Assembly (NCBI GenBank): GCA_021801265.1
Contig: JAJYYE010000012.1
Coordinates: 150,548 to 214,547 of the forward strand
Source: Pseudomonadota bacterium
Lineage (GTDB): Bacteria; Pseudomonadota; Gammaproteobacteria; Halothiobacillales; Halothiobacillaceae
Direction of reading: 5' to 3'
Length of the DNA stretch: 64,000 nt
Positions 45,633 through 54,308 of this stretch are shown piece by piece; the stretch's first letter is position 1; each line of letters begins with the position of its first letter. The notes below the pieces were generated by a model. It was not told the origin of the DNA, made no database searches, and saw only the letters and a list, made by a program, of their open reading frames with translations. The position numbers and the translations under genes are program-made.

Positions 45633-46472
45633 TTAGCGCGCGCCATTTCCCTTGAGGGTATAACGCGCAAGAATATTCATGGCTAACACGCTTAGTGTGA
45701 TCAGAAGTGCAGCAGCCCAGGCTAGGTTTTGCCAATCTTCGTAGGGACTCAACGCATACTGATAAATAACCACCGGCATATTTGCAATCGGTTGATTCAT
45801 ATTGCTGGACCAGAATTGATTATTCAACGCCGTAAATAACAAGGGAGCGGTTTCACCCATGATTCTGGCGGTGGCCAGTAGCACACCTGTGATCATACCG
45901 CTGAGCGCGGCCTTGTAAACGATAGATAGGGTCACCGTATAGCGCGGAGCGCCCAATGCCGCAGCCGCTTCTCGTAATTGGACAGGCACCAGCTTGAGCA
46001 TATCTTCTGTTGTACGGACAACCACAGGAATAACCAAAATGGCCAGCGCAATCGCTCCGGCCCACCCGGAAAAATGACCTTGTGGCTCGACTATGAGTGT
46101 ATAAACAAACACACCCACCACAATGGATGGTGCTGAGAGTAGTACATCGTTAACGAATCGAACCGTACTTGAAAATCTACTGTTACCACCGAACTCAGAC
46201 AAGTACGTGCCGGCCATGATACCCACCGGGGTGCCGATTAAAACCGCAAAAAAAGTAATGACCAACGTACCAAAAATCGCATTTAACAAACCACCTGAAG
46301 CTCCTGGCGGTGGTGTCATTTGAGTAAATACAGCCCAGTTTATATATTGAAAACCCTTACTAAATAGGACTGACAAAATCCAAGCCAGCATAAACAAGCC
46401 CAAAGCTGTCACAAACAATGCGGCAACCAGGTTGAAATAATTAATAATTTTACGGATTTGATACTTTGACAT
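45633..46472 (-). CDS. pstA: Phosphate ABC transporter permease PstA
   Basis: One of two membrane subunits of the phosphate importer. Six hydrophobic helices; the permease EAA-type loop is [74 protein letters not shown] is typical of PstA. Length (279) is normal. It lies 12 bp after pstC in the transport operon. Confidence 0.94.
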
Positions 46473-46484
46473 AATAATTTCTAA

Positions 46485-47468
46485 TTAAGTTTTAGAGCCT
46501 TCCTGCACTTTTTCAAGCCGCAGAAGGAACCATTTAGCGATGGACAAAACAATAAATGTAATAATAAATAATATTAACGCCAAGGCAATAAGTGATGACA
46601 TATGCAAACCGCTGGCTTCATTGAATTCATTCGCCATCGTGGATGCGATGGTAGCACCGGGATAAAACAGCCCGGTATTTAATTCAAGGGAATTACCCAC
46701 CACAAACGCAACCGCCATGGTTTCACCCAAAGCTCGCCCCAAACCCAACATGATGCCGCCGATAACCCCAGCCTTGGTATAAGGCAGAATCACCTTCCAA
46801 ACAACTTCCCATGTGGTTGAACCCATGGCATAGGCTGATTCCTTGAGTTCGGTCGGAACCACCTCGAACATATCCCGCATGACTGAAGCAATAAACGGGA
46901 TAATCATAATTGCCAGCACGACACCTGCCGTAAAAATACTTACCCCAATCGGGGGGCCTTGAAAAAACGGCCCGATCAAAGGGACATTACCCAAGGTATC
47001 CGTCATTAGGGGTTGCATTGTATTTGCGAACCAAGGGGCAAAATAGAACAAACCCCACATGCCATAGATAATTGACGGGACGGCGGCCAGCAACTCAATG
47101 GCAATCCCAACGGGACGTTTCATCCAGTTGGGCGCCATCAGGGTGATGAAAATGGCAATGCCGAAGCTGACGGGAACACCGATAACAATCGCAACAAGAG
47201 AGGTAACCAAGGTACCAACGATCGGCACAAGGGCACCAAATTTTTCGTTAACCACATCCCATTCAGAATGATAGAAAAAACCAAAGCCAAAGTGAGCGAA
47301 TGTCGGCCAGGCCTCTTTCAGCAGCAGCAGCATGATGCCGAATAAAACGGCCAGAACCATTGCCGCAAAGAAAAACGCCGTGCCTCTAAAAACCTTATCA
47401 CCAAGCACGCCACTATTTTGCGCTCGTTTGGCAAGCTTGGCTGGGCCATTCTCAAGTGTTATCATCAT
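46485..47468 (-). CDS. pstC: Phosphate ABC transporter permease PstC
   Basis: Second membrane subunit of the phosphate importer. Recognised by LVPIVGTLVTSLVAIVIGVPVSFGIA, ELLAAVPSIIYGMWGLF and the permease loop LKESAYAMGSTTWEVVWKVILPYTKAGVIGG; the latter precedes ALGETMAV. Length (327) fits. It is separated from pstS by a 141-bp gap containing a strong hairpin. Confidence 0.94.
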   Translation of the reverse strand: MMITLENGPAKLAKRAQNSGVLGDKVFRGTAFFFAAMVLAVLFGIMLLLLKEAWPTFAHFGFGFFYHSEWDVVNEKFGALVPIVGTLVTSLVAIVIGVPVSFGIAIFITLMAPNWMKRPVGIAIELLAAVPSIIYGMWGLFYFAPWFANTMQPLMTDTLGNVPLIGPFFQGPPIGVSIFTAGVVLAIMIIPFIASVMRDMFEVVPTELKESAYAMGSTTWEVVWKVILPYTKAGVIGGIMLGLGRALGETMAVAFVVGNSLELNTGLFYPGATIASTMANEFNEASGLHMSSLIALALILFIITFIVLSIAKWFLLRLEKVQEGSKT

Positions 47469-47559
47469 CTAATGCCTTAAATTCAGTTGCTTAGAGTTAT
47501 TGCCTGCTAAATTATGAGTCATTAACAATAAGTCTAAGCAGTCATTGTGACATGAGCAT

Positions 47560-47584
47560 GAGGCCGAGTGAAACACTCGGCCTC
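47560..47584 (-). promoter_or_regulatory. Intergenic hairpin between pstS and pstC
   Basis: Perfect 11-bp stem GAGGCCGAGTG/CACTCGGCCTC with AAA loop, 26 nt after the pstS stop, with no T-run. This position and shape fit a partial terminator or 3'-end stabiliser that lets pstS exceed the permease genes in expression. Confidence 0.6.
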
Positions 47585-47609
47585 AAAGGTTCATTCGCTT
47601 TTGCGATAA

Positions 47610-48647
47610 TTACATTTTGATTTTTTCAGCCCAAGAAGCTTCAATCATCTGCGCAACATCAGCTGGGATTGGGATGTAGTGCAGCTCTTCTGCCGCAGCT
47701 TGGCCATTTGCCATGCTCCATTTGAAGAAATCAAGTACCGCTTTGACTTCGGCAGGTTTTTCTGGATTGGTGTGGACAATGGCAAAAGTAGAACCAGTGA
47801 TTGGCCAGCTATCGTCACCCGACTGGTTGGTCAGAACCACGCGGAAACCTGGGGTGCCTTTCCAATCCGCATGGGATGCTGCTGCGCCGAATGACTTCAT
47901 GGTGGGTGCAACACGCTTGCCCGCGCTGTTCATCATGTCCATGTAAGGCAGCTTGTTTTGCAACGCATAAGCGTACTCAACATAACCGATTGATCCTTTG
48001 ATACGATCGGTGTAAGACGCAACGCCTTCATTACCTTTGCCACCCAAGTTGCCTTTGGACAGCCAGTTAACGGTTGTGCCTTCGCCAACCTTCTCTTTCC
48101 ACTCTGGGCTTACTTTAGCCAAGTAGTTTGTGAAAATCGCGGTGGTACCTGAAGCATCTGAACGATGCACCACGGTGATGACCATATCCGGCAGTTTCAT
48201 AGATGGGTTCAACTTCGCCAAAGCTTCATCGTTCCACTTGGTGATTTTGCCCATCATGATGTCCGCCAACACGGGACCAGTGATGGTCATTTCGCCTTGT
48301 TTGTTGCCAGGGATATTGGCAACAACGACGATACCCCCCATGATCAATGGCCATTGTGTCAGGCCATTTTTCTCAAGGTCTTCAACCGACAGTGGGGCAT
48401 CCGAGGCACCAAAGTTGACTGTTTTAGCAATAACTTGCTTGATACCAGCACCTGAACCAACGGATTGATAGTTAACTTCGACGCCTTTCTCTTTGTTGTA
48501 CGCTGTTGCCCACTTAGAGATAATTGGGTAGGCAAAAGATGAACCGGCACCCGTGATTTTGGTGACTTCTTCAGCTTGAGCTGAAATAGAGAACGCGGCT
48601 GCAGCAGCAATCATCGCGCTAGTGATCAACTTCTTATTCAATTTCAT
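47610..48647 (-). CDS. pstS: Phosphate-binding periplasmic protein PstS
   Basis: Binds phosphate in the periplasm and delivers it to PstCA. The signal peptide is about residues 1-25. TGAGSSFAYPIISKWATAYNK at the mature start, VGSGAGIKQVIAKTVNFGASDAPL and HRSDASGTTAIFTNYL are the phosphate-loop signatures. The ATG at 48647 has GGAG nine nt upstream; an ATG three codons earlier sits too close to that site. Preceded by a Pho-box-like repeat. Confidence 0.95.
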   Translation of the reverse strand: MKLNKKLITSAMIAAAAAFSISAQAEEVTKITGAGSSFAYPIISKWATAYNKEKGVEVNYQSVGSGAGIKQVIAKTVNFGASDAPLSVEDLEKNGLTQWPLIMGGIVVVANIPGNKQGEMTITGPVLADIMMGKITKWNDEALAKLNPSMKLPDMVITVVHRSDASGTTAIFTNYLAKVSPEWKEKVGEGTTVNWLSKGNLGGKGNEGVASYTDRIKGSIGYVEYAYALQNKLPYMDMMNSAGKRVAPTMKSFGAAASHADWKGTPGFRVVLTNQSGDDSWPITGSTFAIVHTNPEKPAEVKAVLDFFKWSMANGQAAAEELHYIPIPADVAQMIEASWAEKIKM

Positions 48648-48730
48648 CAGAAACATCTCCAGAACAGTTTTGGTTTGGAAGCATTAGCCGCGCCTAAGCA
48701 CAGACTGACCGAAGTATCGCAATCCAAAAA

Positions 48731-48769: not shown

Positions 48770-49009
48770 GGTAATTTACTTATCCCCCAGTCCGCCGCAT
48801 TTTAATTTTTCACCATAGTGCGCGCGCGTTGGGCCTAGCGTCAAATAAATCGCCGGTATCTTCTATCCGCTGAGGGTTATAAAAAACGCCTATTAAACCC
48901 ATGAAATAAAATATATTTTTGCTTTCAGGCGGAACACGCCAGCGCCAGTCCCGATTAAGGCACTCATCGCAGACAGCAATTCTGCCTCAAAAAATAAGCA
49001 AATTCCTGG

Positions 49010-49037
49010 TTGACAACGCCCCATTATTATCAATAAT
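49010..49037 (+). promoter_or_regulatory. Strong sigma70-type promoter of the flavin module
   Basis: TTGACA (49010-49015, perfect) with a 16-bp spacer and AATAAT (49032-49037, five of six). Transcription would begin near 49044, so upstream start codons of the downstream frame (48919, 49036) cannot be used. Confidence 0.65.
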
Positions 49038-49050
49038 GCGAATTATTCTC
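49032..49050 (+). promoter_or_regulatory. Candidate Fur box overlapping the -10 element
   Basis: AATAATGCGAATTATTCTC matches 14 of 19 positions of the Fur consensus and contains the inverted pair AATAAT/ATTATT. It overlaps the -10 element, where a bound repressor would block transcription. Iron control is an inference. Confidence 0.4.
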
Positions 49051-49083
49051 GTTGGTGTTTGTTTTATTTCATGGGTAATGACT

Positions 49084-50052
49084 ATGCAGACTTTGAATCG
49101 TTCGTCTATTTTTGGTGCGGCCTCATTAGGTTTTATGGCTTTTTTTTCTCCGCCTTTGATTGATCGTGCCGAGGCGGATGAAAATCTCTTTGGTTATGTA
49201 TTAGGCGCCGAAACCTTGCCAAAAGGCGCCTCCGAGATGTATTTATGGGCTACCCATCGCTGGGATAAAGGTCAAGGCACGTATAGCGCGTACGATACCG
49301 AGCTTGAGTATGAGTATGGCGTGACTTCGCGCTTTACCGCATCACTTGCCTTGCTCGGGCAATTCATCAATACCAGTGGATTAGTGATTGATGCGTACTT
49401 GCCCGGAGCCGAAAGCTATGGTCTTAAATTCTCGGGGATTGAAGGCAAGGCAAAATATAATTTCCTCGCGCCCGCGCTTGATCCGATTGGCTTATCGATG
49501 ATGTTTGAGCTGCATCATTCCATCCTGGATTCGCATTCTGGCCTCGATAAGGACACGACTTCGGCAGTCACCAGTCTGCAATTACAAAAATATTTTCTTG
49601 ACGGCCAATTAGTCACCGTGGGGAACTTAGGTTTAGAGGCCACCTATGCGGACCGCGCACCACTCAATGCGGCGACTCAGTCGAGCGCAGATATTGCCAT
49701 GCAGAATTTAACCGGCGACCCCAGCGCAACATTTGAATGGCCGACCGACCCAGAAATGGAAATTGAGCTCACTACTGGCGCGGGCTTATCGTACCGGTTT
49801 GCCCCTAACTGGTATGTTGGTGCTGAAACGCAATATCAATCCGAATTTGAAACCCAGGTTGGTCAAGAGCGTTACAGCTGGTTTGCCGGCCCAACTTTGC
49901 ATTACGGTGGAAACAAGTGGTGGGCAACGCTGACCTTTTTCAAGCAATTAAAGGGAGGGCGCGAGCAATATATTAATCAAGCGGACACCAATTTGCACTT
50001 GATTGAGAAAACCAAAAACGAACTTCGCCTGAAAGTCGGTTACAACTTCTGA
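49084..50052 (+). CDS. Outer-membrane beta-barrel candidate (DUF6662-like)
   Basis: A 322-residue secreted protein. The ATG at 49084 has GGG eight nt upstream and lies after the predicted transcription start. A signal peptide ends near RAEA. The mature part has alternating beta-strand pattern with aromatic belts (MYLWATHRWDKGQGTYSAYDTELEYEYGV) and ends KVGYNF with a terminal Phe, the classical outer-membrane barrel signature. I associate it with DUF6662-type proteins from memory. It heads a run with an FMN-binding protein 10 bp downstream, ApbE and a membrane protein, so it may be the outer-membrane part of a flavin electron-transfer or iron-related system. Confidence 0.65.
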   Translation: MQTLNRSSIFGAASLGFMAFFSPPLIDRAEADENLFGYVLGAETLPKGASEMYLWATHRWDKGQGTYSAYDTELEYEYGVTSRFTASLALLGQFINTSGLVIDAYLPGAESYGLKFSGIEGKAKYNFLAPALDPIGLSMMFELHHSILDSHSGLDKDTTSAVTSLQLQKYFLDGQLVTVGNLGLEATYADRAPLNAATQSSADIAMQNLTGDPSATFEWPTDPEMEIELTTGAGLSYRFAPNWYVGAETQYQSEFETQVGQERYSWFAGPTLHYGGNKWWATLTFFKQLKGGREQYINQADTNLHLIEKTKNELRLKVGYNF

Positions 50053-50062
50053 GGATAAAACC

Positions 50063-50614
50063 ATGCGCCATGCCCCACTTTTAGTGATAGCGCCGCTGGT
50101 GATACCGGTAGCGCAGGCCACGGAATATTTCGATACCGCTGGCGCGCAGAAGGCGCTGTTTCCTTCGGCCACCACTTTTGTGGACGCAAAAGTCCATTTA
50201 ACGTCAGACCAGCGCGACAAAATCAAGGAACGTTCTGATGTCAAGCAACGCTGGGATGAGCAACCGGTGTGGCGGGTTGAAAAGGAGGGACAGTTTGTCG
50301 GCTGGTATGTCGAAGATCGCGTCATCGGCAAACACGAATTTATCCGCTACGCCGCTGCGCTGTCGCCGGATGGCCGGGTGCTCGGTATCGAAATTATGGA
50401 ATACCTTGAAACCTATGGCGATCAGATTCGCCAAGCCGATTGGCGCGGGCAGTTTTTGGGAAAAACCGCGCAAAGCACCCTTGATTTGGGTGAAGACATC
50501 AAAAACATCAGTGGCGCGACCTTATCGTGTCGCAATATCACCAACGGCGTAAAGCGCTTGCTCGCTTTGCAGCAGGTGGCGCTCACCAAACCCGCCGCAG
50601 CCGAAGTGAAATAA
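50063..50614 (+). CDS. Secreted FMN-binding domain protein (flavinylation substrate)
   Basis: A 183-residue exported protein with signal peptide (about 1-19) and an FMN-binding domain of the RnfG/NqrC/NosR type. The covalent attachment motif is seen as DIKNISGATLSCRN: the S-G-A-T sequence places FMN on Thr153 via a phosphodiester bond made by ApbE. GAGG lies before the ATG. ApbE follows directly (14 bp), the usual signature of a dedicated modification pair. It should carry electrons in the periplasm. Its small size and lack of extra domains mean its partners must be other proteins of the run. Confidence 0.85.
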   Translation: MRHAPLLVIAPLVIPVAQATEYFDTAGAQKALFPSATTFVDAKVHLTSDQRDKIKERSDVKQRWDEQPVWRVEKEGQFVGWYVEDRVIGKHEFIRYAAALSPDGRVLGIEIMEYLETYGDQIRQADWRGQFLGKTAQSTLDLGEDIKNISGATLSCRNITNGVKRLLALQQVALTKPAAAEVK

Positions 50615-50628
50615 GTGGAGCCCGTCTG

Positions 50629-51453
50629 ATGCAGATTTGTCGTATGCGCCCTGCTCTGGGTACATTTGTTGAAATCGCTGCGTCGGCCAATCTCTCACGA
50701 GCATACATTGAACACGTGGTGGATGCGGCCTACGCGGACATGGCATTGGTTGAAAAACTCATGAGCTTTCACGATGTCAACAGTGAGTTATCGCAATTAA
50801 ATCGCTCGCGCAGCCCCTTAACCATTCACCCATGGACCGCACGTGTGCTGCGTTTTGCGCAACACATGGCGCGTGCCAGTGCACACCGATTCAACCCGAC
50901 AGTCGGTGGTTTATTGGTGGAGGGGGGCCACCTCCCTGATCATGGGCAGGCATTTATTGCTTCAGGAAGCGCCGATGATATTGAGTTGATTGGCTTATCG
51001 ATTCGCCGCCGCCGTGCGGTGCTGATTACTTTAGATGGCATTGCCAAAGGCTGGGCGGTAGATCGAGCGATTGCGCGATTGCGGGGCGGTGGTATCACGC
51101 AGGCGGTGGTGAATGCCGGCGGCGATTGGCGATGTTTTGGTGCGCCGCAAATCATTCGACAATCCATTGAATTGGGTGGTGCGGTATTAGGGCAACTCGA
51201 ACACGGTGCCTGTGCGACATCGGCGGCAGGGCTGGATGCGACGCGCTTTTCGGCGCAATTAGTCAACGATATGAATGTCGTTTTAGCGGGCCATTGGACG
51301 GTCATCGCCCCGCAGGCATGGCGCGCCGATGCACTCACCAAGGTCGCGGCGGTGGCCGCAGCCGAAACAGCAGCCGATTGGGTGACGCGTTTAGGCGGGC
51401 AGTTAATCACCCCTCCCGCGCAGCCAAGGGAGCGCTTCACCCATGCTGGCTAA
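50629..51453 (+). CDS. apbE: FAD:protein FMN transferase
   Basis: Transfers FMN from FAD to a threonine of a target protein in the periplasm, needing Mg2+. Motifs: MRPALGTFVEI near the start, TLDGIAKGWAVDRAI (LDxGGIAKG-type), VNAGGDWRCFG, and ADALTKVA at the C-terminus. The open frame extends upstream into the FMN-binding gene, but ATG 50629 has GGAG eight nt upstream and gives 274 residues. No obvious signal peptide or lipobox is visible, which is unusual for a periplasmic enzyme and leaves its location uncertain. It overlaps the next gene by 11 bp. Confidence 0.88.
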   Translation: MQICRMRPALGTFVEIAASANLSRAYIEHVVDAAYADMALVEKLMSFHDVNSELSQLNRSRSPLTIHPWTARVLRFAQHMARASAHRFNPTVGGLLVEGGHLPDHGQAFIASGSADDIELIGLSIRRRRAVLITLDGIAKGWAVDRAIARLRGGGITQAVVNAGGDWRCFGAPQIIRQSIELGGAVLGQLEHGACATSAAGLDATRFSAQLVNDMNVVLAGHWTVIAPQAWRADALTKVAAVAAAETAADWVTRLGGQLITPPAQPRERFTHAG

Positions 51454-51892
51454 ATTTCGCCAACAAGGTTATCCCGTATTTTTTGCGCCGCTATTGATGG
51501 GAGGTTTTGCGGTCAGCATTGCCACGGGCCTGGCGATGGTGCCATTACTGCTCACGTTTCAATGGGGACTGGATCTGCCGTGGACGCCATCCGGCCTCAC
51601 GCGTACCGCGTTAACTGCTGTACACGTCGGCGGCGGTTTGCTGTTGATTTCGCTGATTGGCGCGGTGTGGATGGTGCACGCGCGAGCGGGATGGTTGCGG
51701 CAAGAACGGCAAATCTCCGGCGTGGGCATGCTATTGATGATTGGCCTGCTGCTGCTTTCCACGCCACTCATCTTATATGTGAGCTTTGAACCCAGCTTGC
51801 CGTGGATGACCACCGCGCATACGCTGGCCGGATTACTCCTTCCCGTGTTACTCGGGATTCATGTCATCCGCCGACACAATCGCACGCGTTGA
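51443..51892 (+). CDS. Four-helix membrane protein, candidate b-type cytochrome of the flavin module
   Basis: A 149-residue protein with four hydrophobic helices (about 11-34, 58-79, 93-113, 124-142). Histidines fall in pairs on helices two and four: His61 and His79, His126 and His140. Two His on each of two helices is the layout used for two stacked haem b groups in cytochrome b561-like and DUF4405-type proteins. It is coupled to apbE (11-bp overlap). I infer that it passes quinol electrons to the flavoprotein. The PepSY/DUF4405 relation is not proven. Its 3' end overlaps the opposite-strand mscS gene by 45 bp. Confidence 0.6.
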   Translation: MLAKFRQQGYPVFFAPLLMGGFAVSIATGLAMVPLLLTFQWGLDLPWTPSGLTRTALTAVHVGGGLLLISLIGAVWMVHARAGWLRQERQISGVGMLLMIGLLLLSTPLILYVSFEPSLPWMTTAHTLAGLLLPVLLGIHVIRRHNRTR

Positions 51893-54124
51893 GTGCGCCT
51901 CGCCGATATTCTGAACATGAAGTGGTGGCGCATTGCCGGTTTTATCTTCACCAAAATACACCGTGGTGTGGGGGAACGGAATCTCAATCCCTGCCGCATC
52001 GAAATGCATTTTGACTAAACGATTGTAAGCTCGACCCACCACCCACTGTTCGCCGGGTAGCGTTTTGATTTGCACCCGAATATCCACCGAACTCGCGCCC
52101 AGGTTTGTTACGCCAGGAATGGCAATCGGTTCGAGAATTTTACCGCATATTGTGCTGTCACTCATGAGCTCGTCGAACGCCGCACGCAAATGCACGATGG
52201 CATCATCAATGTTTTCACGATACGCAATACCGTATTCGGCTTTATGAAACGCCCAACCGCGCATGTAATTGGATACCACATCTACCGATGAAAACGGCAC
52301 GATGTGGTAGGTTCCCGATAAATCCCGCAACCCCACCGAACGAATTGACAAATGTTCTGCGGTGCCCGTAATCCCCCCGACTTTGACGGTATCGCCCGTA
52401 TTAATGGCATTTTCCAACTGAATAAATACGCCGGTAATCACATCTTGAACGAGTTTTTGCGCGCCAAAGCCCACCGCTAACCCAAGCACACCGGCACCCG
52501 CTAATAAGGGGCCGATATTGACGCCCAATTCGGATAAAATCATCATGGTGGCAATGGTGATCAAGGCAATCGCGATGGCATTGCGAAACAAGGTAAGCAA
52601 GGTTTGTACTCGAGCGGAAGGCATGTGATCGCGTTCGCTATTGAGCTTGGCTTCAATCAGGCTTGCAATCACCAACCAGGTAAACAGTGCCAGACCGAGC
52701 ACAAAAACAATATCGAATATCGAACTCAAAAATTGAGCTCCCGCCTTGGTACTTAACCAATGAAACGCATTGGTCACGCGCCACGTGGCGAGGATCCCTG
52801 CCAAAGTAACGATTAAAATGCTGAATCGAATCAAACGCAGCAACCAGGGCATATAGTTATTCAGTCGTCGCTCGAGCATCGGCATGCGGCGGCGGTGATG
52901 ATCCTTGAGGCGCACCTCCCCCCCAAGCAACTGCGTAATCAGCGCCGACAACAGCAATGCGGCCGCCACATACAAGAAGGTATAACCCGTCGCTTTCGCG
53001 ATGAACGGCAAGGCATCGCTTGGGCGGGTCATGCCAACCAAAAAAACCATGCCGATATAGAGCACAGCCAAAAAATGCCAAGTATGTGCCAATACGCCCA
53101 GCAACCACGCCACCACGCCGCTCGGATGGCGTTCTGCGATTCGCAGTACTGCCACCCGAATCACTCGCTGCTGCTGCAGAACAGTTTGAACAGAAAAAAT
53201 CAATCCGATCACGGCCAGCGTCCACACCATTAATTGCGCGACATCAGCACCCCAAACATGCCGCGAGATAGGGATAACCATCAACAACCCATAGCCTAAA
53301 CCGTAAATCAGAATTGAACTGCGGCGCATCCAGAACTGAGCACTGGGGGCCGTAATCGGAAACAGGCGCAGCCCGGTATAACGGGGTACCCAGATCAAAC
53401 GCAGCACCAAGCGAATTAATTCCAGCAGGATAAATGCATTCAAAAATAGCGTGAGTGGCCAGAGTTCGGTTTGATTTGAGGCGGTCAGCAGCGCAGCGAC
53501 AGCACTACCCAGAACGAAAAGACCAACCAAAGCCGCAACGCCAATCCCCCCCACCAGTAATAACGATAAGGCCGCACGCAACAAATGCTGTCGTTGCGCT
53601 GCCGCCCGCGACCAACGATCCAATCGCGTCAAGACGGGAGTCACTGCCCGCTCAATCAACCCGCGCAAGCCGAACATAACACCAACCAAGACCAATAAAT
53701 GCCAGGTATTTGTTAAGAGCTTCGCCGTATCAATTCGTTTTAACGGGGTATGCCATAGTCGGCTTATTTGCTGGGTGAATACCGTAAAACTCGCCCCGAC
53801 TGAACTAAAAATCTTCGCCGTATTTACCGCCATTTGATTGGCTTCAGATTCTTGCGTCGGTATAGCCCCAGCTCTATTGGGTGATTGCGCCGCCAGGCGC
53901 TGCAATTCTGCGATTAAAACAGCGCGAGATTTGGGATCTTCCAAGGCGGCTGCCAAAGCTGCATAATCCAGCGGCTTTACGGACGCATTTTGCGCCGTTG
54001 CTGGCGCCATTTGAAGCGGATTCGCATGAGCAAGCGTCAATCCACCCAGACTGAATGTTGTGAGTAAAATCCCTAAGATCACGCCCCGAAAATTGGGGTT
54101 AACTGTGCTCGAAAACGGTCGCAT
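51848..54124 (-). CDS. Mechanosensitive ion channel, MscS family (large form)
   Basis: A 758-residue channel. The ATG at 54124 has GGAG five nt upstream and begins a signal peptide ending AHA; the longer frame to 54223 is not used. About eleven membrane helices precede the MscS core: the pore-helix phrase GAGVLGLAVGFGAQKLVQDVITGVFIQLENAINTGDTV, then the GTAEHLSIRSVGLRDLSGTYHIVPFSSV beta domain and a C-terminal alpha/beta part. It protects against osmotic downshock. The extended N-terminus resembles MscK/YbiO-type channels. It converges with and overlaps the flavin module by 45 bp. Confidence 0.88.
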   Translation of the reverse strand: MRPFSSTVNPNFRGVILGILLTTFSLGGLTLAHANPLQMAPATAQNASVKPLDYAALAAALEDPKSRAVLIAELQRLAAQSPNRAGAIPTQESEANQMAVNTAKIFSSVGASFTVFTQQISRLWHTPLKRIDTAKLLTNTWHLLVLVGVMFGLRGLIERAVTPVLTRLDRWSRAAAQRQHLLRAALSLLLVGGIGVAALVGLFVLGSAVAALLTASNQTELWPLTLFLNAFILLELIRLVLRLIWVPRYTGLRLFPITAPSAQFWMRRSSILIYGLGYGLLMVIPISRHVWGADVAQLMVWTLAVIGLIFSVQTVLQQQRVIRVAVLRIAERHPSGVVAWLLGVLAHTWHFLAVLYIGMVFLVGMTRPSDALPFIAKATGYTFLYVAAALLLSALITQLLGGEVRLKDHHRRRMPMLERRLNNYMPWLLRLIRFSILIVTLAGILATWRVTNAFHWLSTKAGAQFLSSIFDIVFVLGLALFTWLVIASLIEAKLNSERDHMPSARVQTLLTLFRNAIAIALITIATMMILSELGVNIGPLLAGAGVLGLAVGFGAQKLVQDVITGVFIQLENAINTGDTVKVGGITGTAEHLSIRSVGLRDLSGTYHIVPFSSVDVVSNYMRGWAFHKAEYGIAYRENIDDAIVHLRAAFDELMSDSTICGKILEPIAIPGVTNLGASSVDIRVQIKTLPGEQWVVGRAYNRLVKMHFDAAGIEIPFPHTTVYFGEDKTGNAPPLHVQNIGEAHSTRAIVSADDMNPE

Positions 54125-54308
54125 TGTTACTCCAGTGGAATGATGAACAGGGTGGTTAAAAACGTCATGGTCACATCGGTGCGACAAGAAAAAATGGGCA
54201 AAAAACCGAAGTTTACATGGCATAAATGTGGATTTTGATTGTGTCTATGACTGTATCACCGAGACCAATAATTTTTCACCCTTCTGTTCAGTAGGCGGGC
54301 AATCACGC

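Follow-up and report, generated by a model that had tools for sequence, protein, structure and literature searches.

A conserved operon of a DUF6662 barrel, an FMN_bind/ApbE pair and a putative haem b cytochrome behind a Fur-like site in a Halothiobacillus-like bacterium

Background

Flavinylation gene clusters that include a haem b cytochrome of the DUF4405 family have been published, and haem b binding was demonstrated for one DUF4405 protein (Huang et al. 2024, PMC11334425, in the sections of that paper available to us). For PepSY inner-membrane proteins and FoxB-type siderophore reductases, reduction of ferric compounds in the periplasm has been proposed or shown, and some of these systems are repressed by Fur (PMC8238504; Caulobacter hiuABC, PMC13001220; both in the excerpts available). 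Here we analyse a 64 kb stretch of a Halothiobacillaceae genome ("the window"; positions refer to it unless a locus is named), in which four genes lie on one strand with narrow gaps: a DUF6662 barrel gene, a gene for a flavin mononucleotide (FMN)-binding protein of the FMN_bind family, apbE, and a gene for a four-helix membrane protein. We conclude that these genes are a real, conserved bacterial operon, which is a further arrangement of flavinylation plus cytochrome b beside the DUF4405/apbE and PepSY systems. The closest barrel in our genome scan (81 percent identity) comes from a metagenome-assembled genome of Halothiobacillus neapolitanus, which makes the window genome Halothiobacillus-like. 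The features of the locus are as follows.

49010..49037, plus strand: sigma-70-like promoter TTGACA-16-AATAAT, 11 of 12 consensus bases; a consensus match only
49035..49053, plus strand: Fur-box-like operator AATGCGAATTATTCTCGTT, 16/19, overlapping the -10 region and the probable transcription start
49084..50052, plus strand: DUF6662 outer-membrane beta-barrel (PF20367, E-value = 5.4e-130), start inferred, 12 strands predicted
50063..50614, plus strand: secreted FMN_bind protein; by eye about 19 residues of signal peptide; acceptor motif SGAT with Thr153, GKH at 89-91
50629..51453, plus strand: ApbE-family flavin adenine dinucleotide (FAD):protein FMN transferase, export signal not evident, Asp234 kept, Gln at the catalytic-His position 210
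51443..51892, plus strand: membrane protein of four helices, a putative bis-haem b cytochrome; helix 2 carries His61/79 and helix 4 His126/140

An earlier note on this DNA had described four adjacent genes of these kinds at this place, and its open reading frames (ORFs), SGAT site and His positions are borne out. With the DUF4405 clusters the operon shares an apbE gene beside that of a small membrane protein in which four His are conserved, and an extracytosolic partner, here putatively flavinylated as there; those clusters, however, have six-helix models and a flavinylated Flavodoxin_4 partner, whereas in the window the model has four helices, the FMN_bind protein is RnfG-like and the operon includes an outer-membrane barrel (PMC11334425, sections available). 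In view of these published haem-b clusters, the claim of the earlier note that known flavinylation systems are built differently was too strong (PMC11334425, same sections). Many PepSY clusters also carry ApbE and a flavinylated substrate, but their PepSY domain, mostly DUF2271 substrates and occasional TonB receptors are not found in the window operon by Pfam (PMC8238504, excerpts available).

The FMN_bind domain is shared with RnfG and NqrC, and the family profile matches the RnfG chains 9eri_G (E-value = 7.6e-11) and 7zc6_G (E-value = 1.5e-7). However, the window protein reaches only 35.4 bits with the NCBIfam rnfG model (cut-off 102) and 14 bits with nqrC (cut-off 144), its GKH motif is conserved, and the operon contains no other Rnf or Nqr gene. 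Membership in Rnf or Nqr was rejected because of these scores and because the other three genes belong to other families. A literature search for this gene set found no description, its coverage being partial, so that absence from print is not shown.

Results

Conservation of the gene order

A genome scan with the barrel as query, confined in its reach to close relatives, gave 14 loci; FMN_bind, ApbE and four-helix protein genes lie behind the DUF6662 barrel in all 14. The identical four-gene order was found in the genomes G086, G251, G411, G463 and G551, and G246 keeps it with one porin-like gene inserted between barrel and FMN_bind. On a Sphingomonas plasmid the NCBI annotation gives, in succession, a DUF6662 family protein, an FMN-binding protein, an FAD:protein FMN transferase and a hypothetical protein. 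In total, the other three genes follow DUF6662 in order in 22/22 fully read loci, the window included, as the neighbourhood survey proposed in the earlier note was to establish. Outside this count stand a Novosphingobium plasmid, where barrel and FMN_bind alone were seen, and G164, whose DUF6662 match is below the Pfam cut-off. G164 has no flavin genes within 14.7 kb and is the sole such case among the loci read; the barrel thus does not belong to a family always found without flavin genes. The genes flanking the operon vary from locus to locus.

Co-occurrence in genome samples agrees with this picture. Among 299 genomes sampled across the phylum, five match both DUF6662 and the cytochrome profile, none DUF6662 alone, two the cytochrome alone (G546, and G533 with a 46-residue fragment) and 292 neither. 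With the single window cytochrome as query, a sample of 274 genomes of the class gave four with both, four with a cytochrome match only (including the poorly aligning G181) and one, G164, with DUF6662 only. The DUF6662 and cytochrome families are rare yet tied to each other. At one locus (L040 5929-8844) the barrel is 78 percent identical to that of the window and the cytochrome resembles the other subgroup of the alignment, a hint that barrel and trio may be swapped.

The FMN_bind protein and its transferase

The FMN_bind protein scores 38.8 bits against Pfam FMN_bind (PF04205, cut-off 22) and begins with what appears by eye to be a short Sec-type signal of about 19 residues. In 20 aligned FMN_bind sequences its SGAT acceptor motif (residues 150-153) is well kept: at position 153, 19 have Thr and one has Ser, the GA is invariant, and position 150 is Ser in 16. 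The Sphingomonas protein has SGGT at the acceptor site. This pattern suggests that Thr153 is the flavinylation site and carries a covalent flavin. The GKH motif (residues 89-91) is present in 20/20 rows of the same alignment (A4), with the variants GKY in Ideonella and GKE in the divergent L026 protein. Lys134, which lies 19 residues ahead of Thr153, is Lys in 19/20 rows. It may be the equivalent of Lys207 of NqrC, which precedes Thr225 (PMC12052999, available text).

The window ApbE scores 103.6 bits against Pfam ApbE (PF02424, cut-off 25.6), and of the 13 distinct PDB sequences matched by the family profile, 11 bear the name FMN transferase. Among 18 aligned ApbE rows 34 columns are invariant in all, including NAGGD, IAKG and four of the five positions of DALTK, a motif (DAMTK in one row) that stands at the place of DGLAT or DALST in solved ApbEs. 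No export signal or lipobox was seen by eye: the protein starts 7-19 residues before LGT in 15/21 rows, the ORF of the other six extending up into the preceding gene with an ambiguous start position, and the NCBI-annotated starts on four plasmids likewise give no export signal. Cytosolic ApbEs are known (PMC12052999, available text). How a secreted protein acquires covalent FMN from a transferase without an evident export signal is a question that this pair raises.

As to the Asp-Ser-His triad of the Vibrio cholerae ApbE/FmnB, the 21 rows have the Asp in 21, the Ser in 17 (Thr in four) and the His in none; the ApbEs of L053 and L054, outside the 21 rows, keep the His. In a comparison with 6nxi, an FMN transferase, the His of HIIDP aligns to a non-His residue of the family consensus and the Asp is kept, and in the same comparison 6nxj has Gly at that His position. 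We take both entries to be V. cholerae ApbE. An H257G mutant of this enzyme has been described, which the Gly of 6nxj fits (PMC12052999, available text).

The genome encodes a second ApbE (L001 1354-2424), which by eye has a Tat/lipoprotein-like N-terminus, with an HIINP motif; a TonB-like protein (by eye) follows it. Since this lipoprotein-like ApbE has DGITK, the Lys of DALTK is not unique to the subfamily of the window.

The four-helix membrane protein

The AlphaFold2 model of the membrane protein consists of four transmembrane helices (mean pLDDT, the predicted local distance difference test score, 91.3), in agreement with the hydropathy peaks. His61 and His79 lie on its helix 51-85, His126 and His140 on its helix 119-148. 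The earlier note had asked whether these four His are conserved in homologues; they are invariant in 19/19 aligned sequences (A1), among ten invariant columns. A1 omits L025 (genome G181; poor alignment) and L036, L039 and L040 (over-extended ORFs). Including these, His61/His79 are found in 22/23 rows and His126/His140 in 23/23, the miss being L025, a sequence drawn in by the iterated search and cytochrome b561-like by eye. The four His were also seen by eye in the cytochromes of G411, G463, G551, G546 and the plasmids, outside A1.

No Pfam family matches the window protein significantly; DUF4405 (PF14358) gives 10.9 bits against a cut-off of 26.7 (E-value = 0.71). Among the 19 members of A1, seven match DUF4405 at E-values up to 1 (best 2.6e-4) and six match cytochrome b561 weakly (best 3.1e-6). 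An hhalign comparison of A1 with six DUF4405-like rows (from five loci; L087 below the cut-off) yields a probability of 66 and an E-value of 5.6e-5 in the C-terminal half only, and one with a single DUF4405-like sequence gave nothing useful. These weak matches point to the same broad class as DUF4405 and cytochrome b561. DUF4405 membership itself was rejected, the Pfam score being under the cut-off though the C-terminal half looks related. For PepSY_TM or Ferric_reduct no Pfam match was obtained with the window protein at an E-value of 1, nor among the 25 of 42 families listed for the 19 members. The Pfam assignments expected by the earlier note therefore hold above cut-off for DUF6662, FMN_bind and ApbE and fail for DUF4405 or PepSY in the membrane protein.

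The four-helix protein may bind haem b. The charge topology would place His61/His126 on the periplasmic and His79/His140 on the cytoplasmic side.

The DUF6662 barrel and its exchangeable counterparts

The barrel protein scores 433.8 bits against Pfam DUF6662 (PF20367, cut-off 27), matching positions 2-308 of the 308 of the profile; the name DUF6662 was not found in the literature searched. Its predicted model has 12 strands, counted from the listed strands, and is most similar to FapF (5o65; Z 23.6, 249 residues, root mean square deviation (rmsd) 3.3) and to the COG4313 channel (4rl8; Z 22.7, 238 residues, rmsd 2.6). Autotransporter barrels come next with Z about 20, so that the likeness to FapF and COG4313 may reflect merely a common barrel size. 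To both the fold is alike, yet identity is about 10 percent (COG4313 channel: PMC4493636, in the part available). PHROGs gave no match for the barrel or the cytochrome.

By side-chain parity, derived from hydrophobicity and thus weak evidence, columns of conserved charge, 11 acidic and 7 basic, line the predicted lumen, which would suit a polar rather than a hydrophobic solute. No CxxCH motif occurs in any of the four window proteins. On the model, the barrel is likelier a solute channel than an electron wire. An electron conduit through the barrel was set aside as first choice in view of the 12 strands, the lack of a haem motif and the exchangeability of the barrel type. The electron-accepting outer-membrane partner imagined in the earlier note thus gives way to a predicted 12-strand channel near FapF/COG4313, without CxxCH and replaced by porin-like proteins in some lineages.

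FMN_bind, ApbE and cytochrome genes occur without DUF6662 in G133, G262, G150 and G546 and on plasmids of Bradyrhizobium, Methylocystis and Ideonella, the cytochrome of the plasmids being recognised by position and eye. Another protein of 373-559 residues, porin-like by eye with an N-terminal coiled coil, precedes the flavin genes in several of these and in other loci (G133, G246, G546, the three plasmids and contig 4 of G086). Pfam finds Porin_O_P above the cut-off in G246, Porin_O_P slightly under it in G133 and BBP2 under it in Ideonella, and names no porin family for the other four. CxxCH is absent from all seven of these alternative barrels. In G262 and G150, which belong to one genus, a barrel ahead of the trio was not seen. 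Because the trio occurs without DUF6662, often with another porin-like protein, we regard it as the core and the outer-membrane barrel as its usual yet replaceable partner.

Some variants have additional features. Contig 4 of G086 (L026 5519-7699) carries a second, divergent FMN_bind/cytochrome pair in converging orientation, with a porin-like gene, a Fur-like site and no ApbE in 16 kb; this pair may borrow the transferase of the other locus. On the Methylocystis heyeri plasmid (L101 7861-9542) a multicopper oxidase gene and a ferritin-like gene follow the flavin trio, and the Ideonella cluster has a gene for a MauG-type di-haem protein at its head.

Association with Fur-like sites

The site at 49035-49053 matches 16/19 bases of the Fur consensus and is the top-scoring place in the 64 kb. 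Fur-like sites of at least 14/19 occur in 14/20 DUF6662 upstream regions versus 4/110 control upstreams (Fisher p = 4e-11, an inexact value as the sequences are related). The 20 regions are those of the window, of 13 of the 14 genome-scan loci and of six G genomes, and the controls lie before other genes in 16 of those loci; L039 was excluded because its contig begins within the barrel gene. Beyond this count, the Novosphingobium DUF6662 locus scores 14 in a stretch of 500 bases. Of the variants lacking DUF6662, the Ideonella cluster scores 16 at its head, before the MauG-like gene (10 upstream of its porin), and contig 4 of G086 and G262 score 15 each; G150 was not part of the scoring.

In the own genome of the window, which encodes Fur, the pattern was found at 12 places (17 rows) when up to three mismatches were allowed; the reversed control gave two rows. 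Besides the window, one such place is where a cupredoxin-FTR1 operon begins, and another precedes feoAB by about 380 bases. A further site (L061 1501-1519, three mismatches) lies 18 bases before the ORF of an OprB-type porin (1537-2928). The iron control proposed in the earlier note finds support outside the window too, in the recurrence at 14/20 against 4/110 and in the sites at FTR1, feoAB and the trio variants. As to the strong promoter of that note, the 11/12 consensus bases at 49010 stand; a scan of the region, however, is no richer than shuffled sequence. Since it finds two promoter-like sites versus a mean of 3.5 in shuffles, the match proves nothing by itself.

Gene start and immediate surroundings

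The barrel ORF is open from a TTG at 48919. The gene probably starts at ATG 49084 or 49078, starts favoured because the ATG at 49036 falls within the promoter and Fur site. The divergent neighbours (45633-48656) are presumably pstS-pstC-pstA-like phosphate transporter genes, named from their translations. On the other side a convergent gene (51848-54223), which we take to encode a large MscS-like channel, shares 45 bases with the 3' end of the cytochrome gene.

Discussion

The most economical reading of the operon, towards which we lean by a modest degree, is a Fur-controlled chain, provided with its own pore, that leads from quinol via haem b and a covalently bound FMN to ferric iron. When iron is scarce, Fur would leave the operator at 49035-49053 and the operon would be expressed. 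ApbE would move FMN from FAD onto Thr153 of the FMN_bind protein. Between its helices 2 and 4 the four-helix protein would hold a stacked pair of haems b, one ligated by His61 and His126 and the other by His79 and His140. Electrons, for which the quinol pool is the likeliest source, would pass through this protein to the covalent periplasmic flavin. The flavoprotein might then reduce ferric iron or its chelates in the periplasm, with Fe(II) going to FeoB or FTR1, and the DUF6662 barrel could be the outer-membrane pore that admits the iron-containing compound or else a small redox shuttle. The protein families, the conservation of gene order, ligands and acceptor site, and the link to the iron box come from computation; the haem, the flavin attachment, the quinol donor, the iron substrate and the role of the barrel are what we infer.

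Several observations weigh against this chain. Six of the 20 DUF6662 upstream regions score below 14/19 (L033 and L034 with 13; L038, L040, L019 and L020 with 10-11), the Sphingomonas DUF6662 locus has no good site (13), and neither have Bradyrhizobium, Methylocystis, G546, G133 and the inner G246 gene (9-11). In the own genome a plain iron link exists at only three of the 12 motif places (window, FTR1 and feoAB); one more is that of the OprB porin, and the remaining eight places lie at genes without such a link or within ORFs. The operon holds no iron transporter gene; and as the genome encodes five TonB-receptor plug domains, iron uptake need not rest on this operon. The ApbE shows no evident signal peptide although its substrate has one, and the proposed general-base His of the V. 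cholerae enzyme is missing. As to the cytochrome, Foldseek against the PDB returned no match to the model at an E-value of 0.001. In favour of the chain, a structural second look placed cytochrome b6 (2e74_A; Z 12.2, 138 aligned, rmsd 3.5) and the designed two-haem bundle 4D2 (7ah0; Z 12.1, 104 aligned, rmsd 2.3) among the top rows, but Z values near 12 can mean a mere common helical-bundle arrangement. PepSY or DUF4405-type cytochromes are not listed in this PDB comparison, which excludes nothing.

Among the alternatives, we give the largest though still a minor share of belief to a Fur-regulated chain that, under iron limitation, reduces another periplasmic substrate such as a thiol, a quinone, copper or an organic ligand. 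The lack of any iron-binding protein or transporter in the operon and the variable outside neighbours suit this alternative, as do the copper oxidases adjoining the Methylocystis trio and the MauG-type protein of Ideonella, but the Fur motif is shared with FTR1 and feoAB, and the same Methylocystis trio has a ferritin-like gene nearby. Flavin-based extracellular electron transfer, the reading of the earlier note, in which the FMN_bind protein or a small shuttle would deliver electrons across the outer membrane, by way of the barrel or beside it, to an acceptor outside, appears improbable to us. A barrel gene, DUF6662 or porin-like, does precede the flavin genes in all variants examined except G262 and G150, which makes it probable that the function includes a step at the outer membrane. 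However, a predicted barrel of 12 strands, nearest to FapF/COG4313, is probably not wide enough to pass a flavoprotein of about 18 kDa, and the exchangeable barrels and the lack of CxxCH in the four window proteins and seven alternative barrels speak against a wire.

Slightly less probable still is a degenerate ApbE, with the flavin bound non-covalently or absent, or with flavinylation left to the second, lipoprotein-like ApbE of the genome. The non-His residue in 21/21 rows, the lack of an evident export signal and the Tat/lipoprotein-like N-terminus of that second enzyme would fit this reading. On the other hand, 34 columns are invariant in 18/18 rows (with NAGGD, IAKG and 4/5 of DALTK), apbE keeps its place in the 22 four-gene loci, and L053 and L054 retain the His.

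We return to the Fur-controlled ferric chain. Two points are unexplained, a secreted substrate with a signal-less transferase and an exchangeable barrel. A bolder proposal, which we consider doubtful yet worth stating, is that the operon represents an undescribed class of proteobacterial iron-assimilation machine. It would be the smallest ferric reductase to join quinol to a covalent flavin; a channel family of its own, DUF6662 or else an alternative porin, would serve it; and its ApbE, lacking export signal and catalytic His alike, would flavinylate the substrate in the cytosol before Sec export. If true, such cytosolic flavinylation would run contrary to the usual periplasmic flavinylation. 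Through the proposed chain, DUF6662 would gain a function that can be tested, as would a small membrane protein for which the annotation of four plasmids offers no more than 'hypothetical', and the known flavinylation systems would be joined by an iron-linked arrangement.

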